From Rhodomicrobium vannielii ATCC 17100 (GTDB taxonomy: Bacteria > Pseudomonadota > Alphaproteobacteria > Rhizobiales > Rhodomicrobiaceae): a DNA stretch of 64,000 nucleotides. Below, piece by piece: positions 46,769 to 63,754 of this stretch. Positions within the stretch are counted from its first letter, which is position 1. The number at the start of each line of letters is the position of its first letter. Location of the stretch: contig NC_014664.1 of assembly GCF_000166055.1 (NCBI RefSeq), positions 3,441,501 through 3,505,500 of the forward strand, in the 5' to 3' direction. Below the pieces are notes generated by a model. It saw only the letters and a program-made list of their open reading frames with translations. It had not been told where the DNA came from and made no database searches. The translations under genes and the position numbers were made by a program.

Positions 46769-47569
46769 CTATTTCAGGGGCTCGTAGATGCTGCCGCCGA
46801 AGACCTTGTAGTCGACGGAGAGCTTCACAGTGTCCGTCTCGGTCTCGATCTTGGTCTTGGACGCCGGGAAGTATGCATAAGCGGCATAATCAGCGGTTTC
46901 GTCGGCCTTGTCGAAACGAAGATATTCCACACCAATCGAGAAGCGATTATCGATGGCATACTTTACACCGCCACCGTAAACGAGACCGCCGGTGGTCGCA
47001 TCGAAACCAGACGTACGATTCGCAGAGGGGGTTGTGACGGGGCTCCAGGAAGGCTTCGTATTGCAGCCGCCGTAACCGCCCGTTATCAAAGCGTCAGGGC
47101 AGCCGAACTTGTAAGATAGGCTCGTCCATCCGTAACCGACGGTGGCGTAAGGAAGTACCTTGCCAAAGGAATAGCCAAGAATAGCACGGACCGTGCCGAA
47201 TTTGTCGATACTGGTCGTCTCATTGAGGTAGTTGCCGTCGCGCTCGGTCTTCTCGAGATTGGCAGCTGAAATGTCGGCAACGACACCGACGACGATCTTA
47301 TCGAACTGATAATTGTAGCCGATCTGACCACCGACGAAGCCGCCTTCAAGATCCGGGCGCGGCGCGCCGCCGTTAGCATGGGATGGCGTCCCAGGAAAAT
47401 CGATGGAGTCCCAAGCGTACCCGCCATGCGCGCCAACATAGAGGCCGGTCCAGATCGCGGGCGCTTCATAAACCGGCGCGTCCTTCAGGCTGCCCTTGTA
47501 GAGATCGGCCGCGAAAGCCGACGACGAGAGCGCAACGAAGCTCGCTACACCCAACAAAATCTTTTTCAT
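46769..47569 (-). CDS. Outer-membrane beta-barrel protein (Omp25/31-like)
   Basis: 266 residues. A signal peptide (ILLGVASFVALSSSAFAADL) is followed by alternating beta-barrel text: APAIWTGLYVGAHGGYAWDS, GGFVGGQIGYNYQFDKIVVG, RAILGYSFGKVLPYATVGYG and the end SIGVEYLRFDKADETADYA...VDYKVFGG. This is the small eight-stranded porin-like family common in Rhizobiales. Its role is structural in the envelope or undefined. It stands alone with its own terminator. Confidence 0.87.
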   Translation of the reverse strand: MKKILLGVASFVALSSSAFAADLYKGSLKDAPVYEAPAIWTGLYVGAHGGYAWDSIDFPGTPSHANGGAPRPDLEGGFVGGQIGYNYQFDKIVVGVVADISAANLEKTERDGNYLNETTSIDKFGTVRAILGYSFGKVLPYATVGYGWTSLSYKFGCPDALITGGYGGCNTKPSWSPVTTPSANRTSGFDATTGGLVYGGGVKYAIDNRFSIGVEYLRFDKADETADYAAYAYFPASKTKIETETDTVKLSVDYKVFGGSIYEPLK

Positions 47570-48024
47570 AAATCCCCCAAAAAGCCGAGACGGCCACGCA
47601 CAGGCGTGAGCTATTCAAACGAGTAACCTCGGGAGAATCCGCTGGTTACTAACCGTGGGTTGTGGCCATCAGCGGGAAGGCTTCTACGTAAAATTGCAAT
47701 CCAATATACCTGCTTGAATTATAGGGGCTTAGGCCGTCATGATAGGCCGTGCCTATGATGCAAATGAGCCACAGCTTCATTCCAATATTGAAGGTCTTTT
47801 GCATTCCAGCCCGCCGCCCGCTCAAGCCGCCCCATCCTGTTGATTCAGATCAAGAACTTCGACGCGCCGTCTTGGGCCGTGCCTGCAACAGGACCCCGCG
47901 TCAGAATCGACTTCCCATTCAGCCCGACATGGGGTTTTGTAGCGGCATGTTTTTCCTCTCGTCCGTCCGCCGGGCGAGGCAAGCTTGGCGCGCGAGAGCG
48001 CCTAACATCCGCGAAGAGCCCGAA
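47570..48024. other. Gene-free stretch between the outer-membrane protein gene and argG
   Basis: It must hold the leftward promoter of the outer-membrane protein gene and the rightward promoter of argG. The frame of argG stays open upstream to 47749, but that part lacks protein-like character and a good ribosome site. I see no RNA gene. Confidence 0.5.
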
Positions 48025-58672: not shown

Positions 58673-58717
58673 CTATGTTGCCCCCGTTTGTAATTTTGTT
58701 GCGATACTGCAACATAG
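58673..58717. promoter_or_regulatory. Nested inverted repeats upstream of pioA
   Basis: CTATGTTGC (58673-58681) is the exact inverse of GCAACATAG (58709-58717). Inside, TGTTGC (58697-58702) also pairs with GCAACA (58709-58714). The two left arms compete for one right arm, an arrangement suited to a regulator with two sites. Confidence 0.5.
58699..58712 (+). promoter_or_regulatory. FixK-type box of the pio operon
   Basis: TTGC-GATACT-GCAA fits the TTG(A/C)-N6-(T/G)CAA pattern of FixK2-type CRP/FNR regulators. A -10-like TATAAC stands at 58733-58738; with a start near 58745 the box is centred close to -40, the normal place for an activator that replaces the -35. In Rhodopseudomonas palustris TIE-1 the pio genes are known to be controlled by FixK. 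Confidence 0.6.
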
Positions 58718-58888
58718 GCTCCGCCTTTTATTTATAACCGTTCCAACGTCTAAAGAACGAGCGAAAGCCTTCTTGCGTATATGATTGCTCCTTCGTAATA
58801 ATCTGACTTGCGCGCGCAATATACAAGCGACAACGGGCCGCTTCTCAATCCGGTCCGCGCGTGCAGAAATGGGCAAGGAGGGGGCGTA

Positions 58889-60319
58889 ATGTTTTTCTCT
58901 ATTTTGGCCGGCTCTTCGAGTGGAGAGCCGGAGCGGGGGCGTTTGCGCCTTCCACTGCGAGCGATCTGGACCCTGCCGACAATAGGCTTTCTGATCGCAA
59001 TGACGGCCGGGCAGGCGACCGCCGGACAAACCGCTGCAATCGGTTCTGACGTCTTCGTGTATGCGATGCAGGCTCAAGCGGGCGAAAAGCCGCTTCCGGC
59101 CGGACACCCCGACGTTTCGAGCATGGAGTCTGCAGGTGGCGCTCACGGCGCAAAAAGCGCTCACAGCGGGAAGAGCGCTCACAGCGCAAAAAGCCCGCAC
59201 GGGGGCATGGGCGCGAGCCCGCACGCAGGTCTGCCTTCGTCGAAGGCGAGCCCCGCGAAAGCGCTTCTCAATCATGCGCTGTTTACGCCGGAAGCCGGCC
59301 TCGTCGGTGGCTCTCAACGGTCCAGCAGCAACGCCGATGCCGAGACCGAGCATCTGATCATGGTTGCGGAATCTGTCCCGGCCGCCAAGGCGCCAGCGCC
59401 TGGGGGCAAGGCGAAGGCCGCTGATGCCGCCGCCGACAGCAAGGCGAAGGTGGTCCGCCCCGCGCCCGACGATCCGGAAGGCCGGTATTATGTCGGCTCC
59501 GAGCCTTGCAAGGTCTGCCACGCCTATCTGTTCGACGAGTTCAAATTCACGGTGATGGGCCGCAACTTCGAGGCGGGCAAGGACACGCCCAAAGGCAAGA
59601 TGGACTGCGAAACCTGTCACGGCCCGGCCTCCGGTCACGTGAACGGTGGCGGCGGTCGTCTCGGCGGCGGCATCCGGTCGTTCCGGAAATCCGATCCGCG
59701 CACCTCAGTTGCCGACACAAACGGCGTCTGCTTGCAGTGCCACGAGAAGAACGACCGCACCTACTGGAAGGGCAGCACGCACGAGACGCGCGACGTCGCC
59801 TGCACCGACTGCCACACCGTCATGCGCAAGACCTCGCCGCGCTTCCAACTGGCGAAGGGCACCGTGCAGGACACTTGCTTCCAGTGCCACAAGGATCGCC
59901 GCGCGCAGAGCCTCCGCACCGCACACATGCCGATGATCGAGGGCAAGATCAGCTGCTCAAGCTGTCACAACCCGCACGGCAGCGCGTCGGAAACGGCGAT
60001 GCTCAAGGAAGCAACCGTCAACGACACCTGCTACCAGTGCCACGCCGACAAGCGCGGTCCGTTCTTGTTCGAGCATCCGCCGGTTCGTGAGAACTGCATG
60101 AACTGCCACGAACCGCATGGCTCGATGCACAACAGCCTGCTCGTGGTGTCTCGTCCGCGGCTCTGCCAGCGCTGCCATACGGCACCGCATGACGTCGCCA
60201 GCCTCGGACAGACCACCGTAACCAACAACAACCGCCGTATCGTCAGTCAGGCTTGTCAGAACTGCCACACCAACATCCACGGTTCGAACGCGCCATCCGG
60301 ATCGAGATGGCACCGGTAA
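58889..60319 (+). CDS. pioA: Decaheme c-type cytochrome PioA (MtrA family)
   Basis: 476 residues from ATG at 58889 with AAGGAGGGGG upstream. A signal/anchor segment (LPTIGFLIAMTAGQATAG) is followed by a His/Lys/Ser-rich linker and then ten C-x-x-C-H heme sites: CKVCH, CETCH, CLQCH, CTDCH, CFQCH, CSSCH, CYQCH, CMNCH, CQRCH, CQNCH. The end (NCHTNIHGSNAPSG) is typical of DmsE/MtrA/PioA. In the pio system it takes electrons from Fe(II) through the outer-membrane barrel PioB. The N-terminal extension with AHS/KS repeats before the hemes is longer than in MtrA, as known for PioA. Confidence 0.94.
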   Translation: MFFSILAGSSSGEPERGRLRLPLRAIWTLPTIGFLIAMTAGQATAGQTAAIGSDVFVYAMQAQAGEKPLPAGHPDVSSMESAGGAHGAKSAHSGKSAHSAKSPHGGMGASPHAGLPSSKASPAKALLNHALFTPEAGLVGGSQRSSSNADAETEHLIMVAESVPAAKAPAPGGKAKAADAAADSKAKVVRPAPDDPEGRYYVGSEPCKVCHAYLFDEFKFTVMGRNFEAGKDTPKGKMDCETCHGPASGHVNGGGGRLGGGIRSFRKSDPRTSVADTNGVCLQCHEKNDRTYWKGSTHETRDVACTDCHTVMRKTSPRFQLAKGTVQDTCFQCHKDRRAQSLRTAHMPMIEGKISCSSCHNPHGSASETAMLKEATVNDTCYQCHADKRGPFLFEHPPVRENCMNCHEPHGSMHNSLLVVSRPRLCQRCHTAPHDVASLGQTTVTNNNRRIVSQACQNCHTNIHGSNAPSGSRWHR

Positions 60320-60429
60320 TACAAAAAACGACTTAAAAACAAGAACCTGGCCGGTCTTTGGGCGGACCGGCCGGGAAAGGGCGGAGAGACGGATCAGGAG
60401 AGGCGCCTTGGGCGGCGCGGGAGGGGATT

Positions 60430-62964
60430 ATGGAGTTTCATGGCAGAATAGTGCTGACGAGTCTTCTGTCTATTGCAGTGGCATCTATCGCGTTGCAGTC
60501 GGCGCGAGCTGGCGACAAACCGGCCCCGGCGCCGGTTGCGCCAGCCGCCGACGAAAAAATCGAACTGGATACTTGGGGTGATATCGAGTTTGGCGGACGG
60601 TATTTTCCGAAAAAGCCAAGCGAACTAGGAAGCAACAAGTGGTCGACCACGACCATTCAACGTCCTGAGGCCGAAAGCATCGCGAAGTACGAGGAATACG
60701 GCAACGTGCCTCAGGGCTTCTATTTCGAGAAGCTAACGGTCGGTGGCCAAACCAAGAGCGGTGAATACGCGGCCGAGCTTCGCGCGACGGACATCGGTAA
60801 CAACAACCAGCGCTATATCTTCGACTGGTTCGTGACGGGCGAGCTTTCCGGCACCGTCACATGGGACCAGACCCCCCACCTCTTCAGCACGACGGCTCTA
60901 AACATCTGGAATGGTGTCGGTACCGACCATCTGACACCCAAAGCGCAGGTTGGGGCGTATACGACGACCACCCCTGCTTATCTTGCTTCCATTCAGAGCC
61001 TCATCGCGCAGGGGAATACTATCAGGATCGGAATAGAGCGCGACCGCTTCGAAGCGGATCAGCGTTGGACGCCGACCCCGCACTGGGAGATTCGCGGCAA
61101 CTATTTCTATGATCATCGTTATGGAACTCAGATTGCGGGCACCAACTGGGGTGGCGGCGCTGGTCCTGTTATGGTTCAGATGCCGCGGCCAGTTGACGAC
61201 ACCACCCAGAACGCCAAAGTGTCGGGTGAGCGATCCGGCGAGTGGGCCTACGGCAAATACAACGTGAAGATCACGGGCGGGTTATCGACTTTCGATAACT
61301 CTTTCTCCTCCTATACGGTCGAGAATCCCTTCGTAGCCACGGGGACAACCTGCGCTAGCGCCTACACTGGAACTGCAAACGCCCCTTGCTCGCTCATCAG
61401 CCTGATGCCCAGCAACGAGGCTTATTCGGGTAACGTCACCTCCGCCATCGATCTGCCGTTCAAGTCTCGTTTCATGAATACCGTGCAGTACACGAGCATG
61501 AGGCAGAACGATCCGTTCCAGGACCCCACGGGTTCTACGGGAAACACGTACTATATCCCGGGTTCGACCACGATTCAGGTCGCCAACGCCGCGACCAGCC
61601 TTAACGGCGAAGTCAACACGCTGCTCGTCAACAACGTGCTGACCACGAGAATAACCGACGACCTGAAGTCCACATTCCGTTACCGTTATTACGACAACGA
61701 CAACCAGACTCCGGTCCTCACGTGGAACTGGGTCACGGAAGACGGCGCAACTTCAACAGCAACTCGTAGAAACTTCGGTTACTCCTACACAAAGCAGAAT
61801 GCGTCCGGTGATCTGACCTATCACGTGCTGAAGAATGCTTCGGTCGGCGGCAGCGCCGGTTGGGAGCGCATCGACAGAGAGAAACGCGAGGCGCTTCAAA
61901 CGAACGAGTATATCGGCAAGGTCTACGGCGACGCGCGGTGGGACGACATCGGGCAGCTTCGCGCCAGCTATCAGTATTCGGAACGGCGCTACGACCGTTA
62001 CGATCCGAAAGCGTGGTATGATTATCTTTACCCTGCCTACCCTCAGGTGGTCGGCGGAATTACCTACACGCAGGGTGGCGGCGGCGGTGGAACGAACTGG
62101 GGCGTACGCAAGCTCGATCTGGCCGACCGCGACCGCGAGAAGGCGATGGTGCTCTTCACGTTCGATAATATTCCCCATGTCCCGAACCTGTCTCTTACAC
62201 CGAGCTTCGGGCTGCGCAACGATAATTATCTGACCGACCCGAACAGGCTGGTCACCATCGCCGGTACGGGCTCAGCTGCCGGAAACACCTACTCCACGTA
62301 CGAGATGGGCCTTTTGAAGGACAACAGTTGGAACGGCGGCCTCGAAGCATCCTATTCGTTTGGGCCGGGCCTGACCGTGTCTGCCGCCTATGTGCGCGAA
62401 GAATTCGACAAGGACCTGGCGGGAAGCACCAGCACCACGACCTCAGGCACTGGGGCTACCGGCACAGCTAATGCTCTTGACTCGATCAATCGTTGGTCAA
62501 GTAACATGAAGGAGAACGTAAATACCTTCATTCTCGGCTCCAACTTCATTTTCAACGATCGGTTCGATATCAGCGCCAGCTACTCCATCGCGCTCGGCAA
62601 CGAGAACTGGAGCACGGAGGCGTTGGGTGCCACCAGCGTGTGTAACCCCGTAGGCGGAGCGGGCAGCAACATCACGGGCGCCTGTCAGCCGATCGACCCA
62701 GTCAAAACGACGCTCCAGCGGATCGACTTGCAATCCCGCTTCAAGCTCGATTCGGAACTCGTCTCCCAGCTCGGCTTTGAGGGCGATGTTTACTGGAAGC
62801 TTAAGTACAGTTTGGACCGGTCGCGCGTTAAGAATTGGCAGAACGACCTCGTTACGCCGTATATGTACCTTGTCGACAACACGGCGCGCGATATCGCCAT
62901 GGCGGCGTACAACCCGAACTATGATGTTCACGTCGTCGCTACGTCGCTGAACTTCAAATGGTAA
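60430..62964 (+). CDS. pioB: Outer-membrane beta-barrel porin PioB (MtrB family)
   Basis: 844 residues from ATG at 60430 with GGGAGGGG upstream. A signal peptide (LLSIAVASIALQSARAG) precedes an MtrB/PioB barrel: DTWGDIEFGGRYF, FDWFVTGELSGTVTWDQTPH, many alternating strands, and the end with an aromatic final residue (VVATSLNFKW), required for barrel insertion. It would hold PioA in the outer membrane to form a conduit for Fe(II) electrons. It starts 110 bases after pioA in the same message. The gene is followed by three hairpins. Confidence 0.9.
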   Translation: MEFHGRIVLTSLLSIAVASIALQSARAGDKPAPAPVAPAADEKIELDTWGDIEFGGRYFPKKPSELGSNKWSTTTIQRPEAESIAKYEEYGNVPQGFYFEKLTVGGQTKSGEYAAELRATDIGNNNQRYIFDWFVTGELSGTVTWDQTPHLFSTTALNIWNGVGTDHLTPKAQVGAYTTTTPAYLASIQSLIAQGNTIRIGIERDRFEADQRWTPTPHWEIRGNYFYDHRYGTQIAGTNWGGGAGPVMVQMPRPVDDTTQNAKVSGERSGEWAYGKYNVKITGGLSTFDNSFSSYTVENPFVATGTTCASAYTGTANAPCSLISLMPSNEAYSGNVTSAIDLPFKSRFMNTVQYTSMRQNDPFQDPTGSTGNTYYIPGSTTIQVANAATSLNGEVNTLLVNNVLTTRITDDLKSTFRYRYYDNDNQTPVLTWNWVTEDGATSTATRRNFGYSYTKQNASGDLTYHVLKNASVGGSAGWERIDREKREALQTNEYIGKVYGDARWDDIGQLRASYQYSERRYDRYDPKAWYDYLYPAYPQVVGGITYTQGGGGGGTNWGVRKLDLADRDREKAMVLFTFDNIPHVPNLSLTPSFGLRNDNYLTDPNRLVTIAGTGSAAGNTYSTYEMGLLKDNSWNGGLEASYSFGPGLTVSAAYVREEFDKDLAGSTSTTTSGTGATGTANALDSINRWSSNMKENVNTFILGSNFIFNDRFDISASYSIALGNENWSTEALGATSVCNPVGGAGSNITGACQPIDPVKTTLQRIDLQSRFKLDSELVSQLGFEGDVYWKLKYSLDRSRVKNWQNDLVTPYMYLVDNTARDIAMAAYNPNYDVHVVATSLNFKW

Positions 62965-63472: not shown

Positions 63473-63754
63473 ATGGAAGATACCAGCAACAAGGCCGGAA
63501 ATACGCGGCGTGAAGTCCTGAAGTTCGGCGCTTACGCGCTCGGCGCGCTCGGCGCAGTCGGGCTCGTGGCGGGCAGCGCGGAAGCGCAGGTAGCGAAGAA
63601 GGCGGCGCAGTCGGCCGTCGGTTATCAGGGATCGCCGAATGGCGACAAGCAGTGTGGGAAGTGCCAGCACTTCCAAGCCCCCTCAAGCTGTCGCGTCGTG
63701 GATGGCACCGTCAGCGCGAACGGCTACTGCAAGATCTTTTCCAAGAAAGGCTAG
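63473..63754 (+). CDS. pioC: High-potential iron-sulfur protein PioC
   Basis: 93 residues with AAAAGGAACGCTCCC before the ATG. The N-terminus has a twin-arginine signal (NTRREVLKFGAYALGALGA), as expected for export of a folded Fe-S protein. The mature HiPIP carries four Cys: QCGKCQHF, SSCRVVDG and NGYCKIF, which bind one 4Fe-4S cluster. PioC passes electrons from PioA in the periplasm to the photosynthetic reaction centre. The small size is normal. Confidence 0.92.
   Translation: MEDTSNKAGNTRREVLKFGAYALGALGAVGLVAGSAEAQVAKKAAQSAVGYQGSPNGDKQCGKCQHFQAPSSCRVVDGTVSANGYCKIFSKKG

Follow-up and report, generated by a model that had tools for sequence, protein, structure and literature searches.

A conserved palindrome shared with outer-membrane beta-barrel genes is a candidate NtrX operator at the pioABC promoter of Rhodomicrobium

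Results

The pioABC locus and its upstream region

The window, that is, the whole 64,000-nucleotide stretch of DNA analysed here, spans positions 3441501-3505500 of the single 4,014,469-base contig of Rhodomicrobium vannielii ATCC 17100. Profile matches confirmed that the genes downstream of the regulatory box proposed in the initial annotation form a true pioABC operon, encoding a decaheme cytochrome, an MtrB/PioB porin and a HiPIP. The nearest named relatives of PioA belong to Rhodomicrobium udaipurense and Rhodomicrobium sp. Az07. The start of pioA is the ATG at 58890, and this ATG and its ribosome-binding site are kept in four Rhodomicrobium species. The features of the locus are as follows.

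58673-58681, + strand: left arm of a second, 'competing' inverted repeat, judged not functional (2/9 columns identical in 4/4 species)
58697-58714, + strand: 18-bp palindrome TGTTGCGATACTGCAACA, the proposed NtrX-type box (17/18 columns identical in 4/4 species; score 22.28 with the matrix described below)
58733-58738, + strand: -10-like TATAAC, TATAAT in two relatives (5/6 columns identical in 4/4 species)
58739-58889, + strand: putative 5' leader of ~145 nt, conserved after the -10 (18/22 columns identical over 58739-58760 and 100/129 over 58761-58889)
58890-60319, + strand: pioA, decaheme c-type cytochrome (TIGR03508 decahem_SO, 8.5e-74, 248 bits)
60358-62964, + strand: pioB, MtrB/PioB outer-membrane porin (PF11854, 5.3e-96, 323 bits; TIGR03509, 1.9e-98)
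63473-63754, + strand: pioC, Iro/HiPIP-type iron-sulfur protein (NF041615 Iro, 7.4e-16, 58 bits, below the cut-off of 100)

The TTGC-N6-GCAA box described earlier is present as TTGCGATACTGCAA at 58699-58712, with 20 bases between it and the TATAAC at 58733-58738. These 14 bases are the core of a longer palindrome, TGTTGC-N6-GCAACA, at 58697-58714. Its centre lies at 58705.5 and TATAAC begins at 58733, which can be set against the class II benchmark of a centre near -41.5 as a geometry built on a predicted start. Inspection of the sequence revealed no recognisable -35 at 17 bp from the pio TATAAC. Transcription is predicted to start near 58745; a conserved -10 and a conserved stretch downstream of it are what would be expected if transcription begins there. 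The pioA leader matched no Rfam family at the gathering score. Over 58761-58889 it is almost as conserved between species as the first codons of the gene (55/67 columns).

Conservation was assessed across the four Rhodomicrobium species that carry the pio operon, out of five genomes, the fifth being 88% complete. All but one of the 18 columns of the palindrome are identical in the four species, and its outer TG/CA bases are invariant. Identical columns in the flanks number 17/80 and 13/40 upstream and 6/18 between the box and the -10. A second inverted repeat, suggested earlier to compete for the right arm of the box, exists as letters: CTATGTTGC (58673-58681) pairs perfectly with GCAACATAG (58709-58717), and the right arm is shared. 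We rejected a functional role for it because the left arm is not conserved, keeping only 2/9 columns.

The 18-mer is shared with a set of outer-membrane beta-barrel genes

Shorter forms of the box occur at chance level: TTG-N8-CAA was found 12 times in the 64-kb window against 11.95 expected, and the genome has 89 copies of TTGC-N6-GCAA compared with 87 of the reversed pattern. As these counts are close to those of the controls, the 14-mer alone is no more than chance would supply. Only two places in 4.0 Mb carry the exact TGTTGC-N6-GCAACA, one before pioA and the other between two outer-membrane beta-barrel genes. Relaxed to TRTTGM-N6-KCAAYA, the pattern gave 30 sites in the five Rhodomicrobium genomes and 2 when reversed. 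By inspection of the flanking frames, 20 of these 30 sites precede pioA (4) or paralogous beta-barrel genes of the '...KDAPIIV..WTGFYVGGHLG' type (16); no such gene follows the remaining 10. From the first base of a box to the start codon the distance is about 170-205 bases, with the pioA box at -193.

All pairs of spaced trinucleotides were counted without bias upstream of the beta-barrel genes of the R. vannielii genome. The 15 PF13505 matches, with one gene added by eye (L049) and one removed for an internal stop (L072), gave 15 genes and, with pioA, 16 upstream regions. The top dyad was TGT-N12-ACA (7/16 regions, 0.6 expected) and the second was TTG-N8-CAA (11/16, 2.1 expected), and both fall within one 18 bp. 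The site and its shared regulon are, with high probability, real. The gene removed from the set (G000:C1:3603221-3603541) is a beta-barrel copy that adjoins an intact paralogue.

The same motif precedes ntrY across the order

TGTTGC-N6-KCAACA is present in 122/150 genomes of the order Hyphomicrobiales. A further 52 sites in the order were examined by their reading frames. Several lie before secreted or outer-membrane genes, several others inside frames or before nothing recognisable, and three upstream of ntrY, which encodes a sensor kinase. One more (L115) is 266 bases upstream of a match to ntrY. By themselves, the three sites next to ntrY were judged a weak basis for naming NtrX until a test on 30 loci had been made. 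In both B. abortus and R. sphaeroides, binding of NtrX ahead of its own operon has been reported (PMC7240162). An NtrX site would thus be expected in front of ntrY, and on that ground ntrY was sought in the 150 genomes. It matched in 144 of them, and the best 30 loci, from other Hyphomicrobiales, were used. TGT-N12-ACA was found within 600 bases upstream of ntrY at 25/30 loci, compared to 0-7/30 for other spacings. After removal of three near-duplicates and one truncated locus, TGT-N12-ACA was the strongest of 78,970 dyads upstream of ntrY, occurring in 22/26 loci with 1.6 expected.

The ntrY sites share the consensus TGTYGC-N6-GCRACA, in which the fixed TGT and ACA enclose, as preferred bases, a pyrimidine followed by GC. 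They are often tandem, with ACA-N1-TGT at 14/26 loci and ACA-N4-TGT at 12/26. The pio box fits this consensus of sites before ntrY, where NtrX sites have been described in B. abortus, S. meliloti and R. sphaeroides (PMC9223101, PMC7240162); it differs in being a single box, whereas ntrY upstream regions often carry two. Rhodomicrobium's own ntrY box, TGTGATGCATATGCCACA in four genomes, scores 15.0 with the matrix described below, lower than the pio box, and that of the most divergent relative (G002) scores 2.3.

The published NtrX motifs are GCA-N9-TGC (PMC7240162) and CAA-N2-5-TTG (PMC9223101), neither of which was seen by eye in the 18-mer. GCA-N9-TGC was present upstream of ntrY at 8/30 loci, no commoner than other spacings. 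The junction of two tandem boxes, CAACA-n-TGTTG, reads CAA-N5-TTG, so that the latter published motif could be a two-box junction. One motif given for an S. meliloti ntrY probe, CAATGCGTTG (PMC9223101), occurs exactly, just downstream of a box, at one Hyphomicrobiales locus (L166).

The pio box is the top match in the window for a matrix derived from ntrY sites

Twenty-two distinct ntrY sites of other genera, and no pio or beta-barrel sequence, went into a symmetric matrix. Six of its positions are fixed by construction because the sites were picked by TGT...ACA. Within the 64 kb the matrix gave its highest score, 22.28, to the pio box, followed by sites at 15.31 and 8.54. The site scoring 15.31 precedes the only PF13505 gene placed in the window:

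47756-47773, - strand: second-best NtrX-type site in the window (score 15.31), 204 bp upstream of a beta-barrel gene (46808-47533, - strand; PF13505)

In random sequence matched for composition (4 Mb), no site reached 20 and ten reached 15.3. Scores were -13.8 and -16.1 for FixK-type sites and 0.4 for a PpsR-like site. Two counts in the R. vannielii genome tell against NtrX: the 18-mer with up to two mismatches gave 187 versus 135, and the degenerate TGTNGC-N6-GCNACA is not enriched (6 sites against 11 for the reversed pattern). Outside the genus, 2/9 alphaproteobacterial pio loci have a weak NtrX-like site (Afifella sp. IM 167, 15.6; Rhodopseudomonas infernalis, 15.0). This low number, and the canonical FixK boxes in two Rhodopseudomonas pio loci, suggest that any true link between NtrX and pio is largely confined to Rhodomicrobium.

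Upstream of this beta-barrel gene (about 46808-47533, - strand), a canonical FNR/FixK-type box, TTGATTCAGATCAA (47840-47853), accompanies the NtrX-type site.

Discussion

NtrX as the candidate regulator of pioABC

The genome encodes NtrX (NF051870, 763 bits against a cut-off of 600), which adjoins NtrY; an hfq-like gene, named by inspection, lies in the same stretch. Sigma-54 activators carry a GAFTGA loop. The AAA domain of this NtrX reads FFGVEETGSTVRKVG in its place, which fits a sigma-70-type promoter. Judged from sequence, the 18-mer is probably an operator for NtrX, of the NtrYX system, placed near -40 of a sigma-70-type pioABC promoter, and pioABC in Rhodomicrobium most likely belongs to an NtrX outer-membrane regulon rather than being controlled by FixK as it is in R. 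palustris TIE-1.

Phosphorylated NtrX would hold both TGTTGC half-sites through a dimer of its Fis-type DNA-binding domain, and the bound protein would recruit RNA polymerase to a pio promoter that has the -10 TATAAC and lacks a -35. The same box would drive a set of Rhodomicrobium outer-membrane beta-barrel genes. Since the box is common to those genes, the PioAB conduit may be made within an envelope/redox programme rather than under FixK. What the sequence itself establishes is the box with its conservation, the set of genes that share it, the fit to the ntrY sites and an encoded NtrX; we infer NtrX binding, activation, the transcription start and the signal at pio. Activation is favoured because a promoter without a -35 would need an activator near -40. 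Repression of pio by occlusion is possible, and NtrX has been described as both an activator and a repressor (PMC7240162, PMC9223101). Other NtrX targets reported for R. sphaeroides are envelope genes (PMC7240162). NtrY of Brucella is reported to carry haem and to act as a redox sensor, and NtrYX of Paracoccus to affect iron homeostasis (PMC9409073); by analogy, both properties would make sense for iron oxidation. The link to low oxygen drawn in the initial annotation may therefore survive by another route, given the haem-based redox sensing reported for Brucella NtrY.

A broader proposition is about evenly balanced in our judgement: that phototrophic iron oxidation in Rhodomicrobium has passed from FixK to NtrX control, together with a lineage-expanded set of outer-membrane beta-barrel proteins under the same regulation, and that the true NtrX operator of the Hyphomicrobiales is TGTYGC-N6-GCRACA, often in tandem. 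Such an operator would account for the conflicting published NtrX motifs. NtrX control of pio would mean that one iron-oxidation operon answers to different regulators depending on the photoferrotroph, in this case to an envelope/redox system. NtrX, whose published motifs disagree, would gain a concrete operator and a predicted regulon, and the outer TG/CA bases would be the positions that separate NtrX from FixK cleanly. We found no report of NtrX with Rhodomicrobium in the open-access literature, and the matches listed there included none of NtrX with pioABC, a photoferrotroph or iron oxidation.

Alternative regulators

The main rival to NtrX is a CRP/FNR activator, either FixK or an FnrL-type oxygen sensor, whose dimer would read TTGC-N6-GCAA as a class II site and turn pio on at low oxygen. 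The initial annotation had proposed FixK in this role; a site of predicted class-II-like geometry, next to a -10 and without a recognisable -35, does stand before pioABC, but its TTGC halves and conserved outer TG/CA speak against FixK as the regulator, and we regard control by FixK or FnrL as unlikely. The inner 14 bp fit the looser TTGA/C-N6-T/GCAA consensus given for FixK2 of Bradyrhizobium diazoefficiens in a study of FixK2/NnrR boxes, and the outer TG/CA of Rhodomicrobium fall outside that consensus (PMC6710368). In 4/4 species, these outer bases are invariant, although they form no part of a FixK box, and both pio half-sites are TTGC/GCAA, not TTGA/TCAA. Other FNR-like sites in the genome are of the TTGA type (TTGACCTGTGTCAA by L003 and TTGATCTGAATCAA by L066), and the shorter patterns such a dimer would read, TTG-N8-CAA and TTGC-N6-GCAA, stay at chance level. 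Several beta-barrel boxes, on the other hand, are TTGC-N6-TCAA hybrids. The ntrY-derived matrix fits the pio box and rejects FixK sites.

The TIE-1 pioABC promoter (PMC3050613) resembles that of Rhodomicrobium in its operon, in a box next to the -10, in the class-II-like position of that box, predicted for Rhodomicrobium and with FixK I of TIE-1 centred at -44.5, and in a long leader (177 nt in TIE-1; about 145 nt predicted here). It differs in having a pair of canonical TTGA-N6-TCAA boxes, of which FixK binds the proximal, whereas Rhodomicrobium has a single 18-bp box common to outer-membrane genes. The canonical box TTTGATTTGAATCAAA is found in two Rhodopseudomonas pio loci. The R. vannielii genome does encode two FnrL-like proteins, but these two closest CRP/FNR proteins, which match FnrL better than FixK, both fall below the cut-off, and no CRP/FNR protein has the FixK model as its best match at the cut-off. 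Two further features of this family were seen. The CRP-like HTH regions of L004 and L005 are identical over the matched stretch, L005 being joined to an unrelated frame and thus a partial duplication, and the sequence of L006, by inspection, is that of a CRP-family protein resembling the CO sensor CooA.

PpsR (CrtJ), the oxygen-responsive repressor of photosynthesis genes, could instead bind the box and repress pio in air, which would tie iron oxidation to phototrophy. The PpsR consensus is TGT-N12-ACA, and the pio box contains it; PpsR itself is encoded in the photosynthesis cluster (461 bits, cut-off 275) beside a gene that is AerR-like by inspection. We nevertheless consider this very unlikely: an intergenic TGT-N12-ACA site of the photosynthesis cluster, TGTAAACCCAAATTGACA, has different inner bases and is the PpsR-like site scoring 0.4, the inner bases of a TGTCAA...TTGAC stretch near a bchF-like gene also differ from those of the pio box, and the box also stands before outer-membrane genes and, throughout the order, before ntrY.

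Another palindrome-binding envelope regulator, for example of the MarR or TetR type, might use the box and also act on ntrY. Among the 52 further sites the box lies before clpB-like (5) and PpiC-like (3) genes, named by inspection, which are not reported as NtrX targets in the accessible passages of the literature. Against this, NtrX is reported to regulate its own operon, ntrYX, in two genera (PMC7240162), and the box ranks as the strongest dyad before ntrY; we hold such a regulator to be highly improbable. CenR was rejected because the layout of its TGA-N8-TGA motif (PMC9275681) differs, as was ChvI: the TTGC-N3-GCAA motif reported for Caulobacter ChvI (PMC9731502) has the same arms and an envelope regulon, but a spacer of 3, not 6.

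Further occurrences of the motif

The clpB-like genes with an upstream box are those at L118, L128, L130, L138 and L148, in five other Hyphomicrobiales, and at least two of these boxes lie just upstream of CCATAT, which resembles a heat-shock -10. At L101, L108 and L111, in three genomes from a single family, the box precedes a PpiC/SurA-like gene, with a secA-like gene on the other side in two of them. A scan of 25 spacings in the five Rhodomicrobium genomes (41 matches) gave 9 sites for N6, which are not independent since several are orthologues, and 7 for N3. These seven TGTTGC-N3-GCAACA sites occur, apart from the N6 form, in four of the five genomes (G000-G004) and resemble the Caulobacter ChvI motif.
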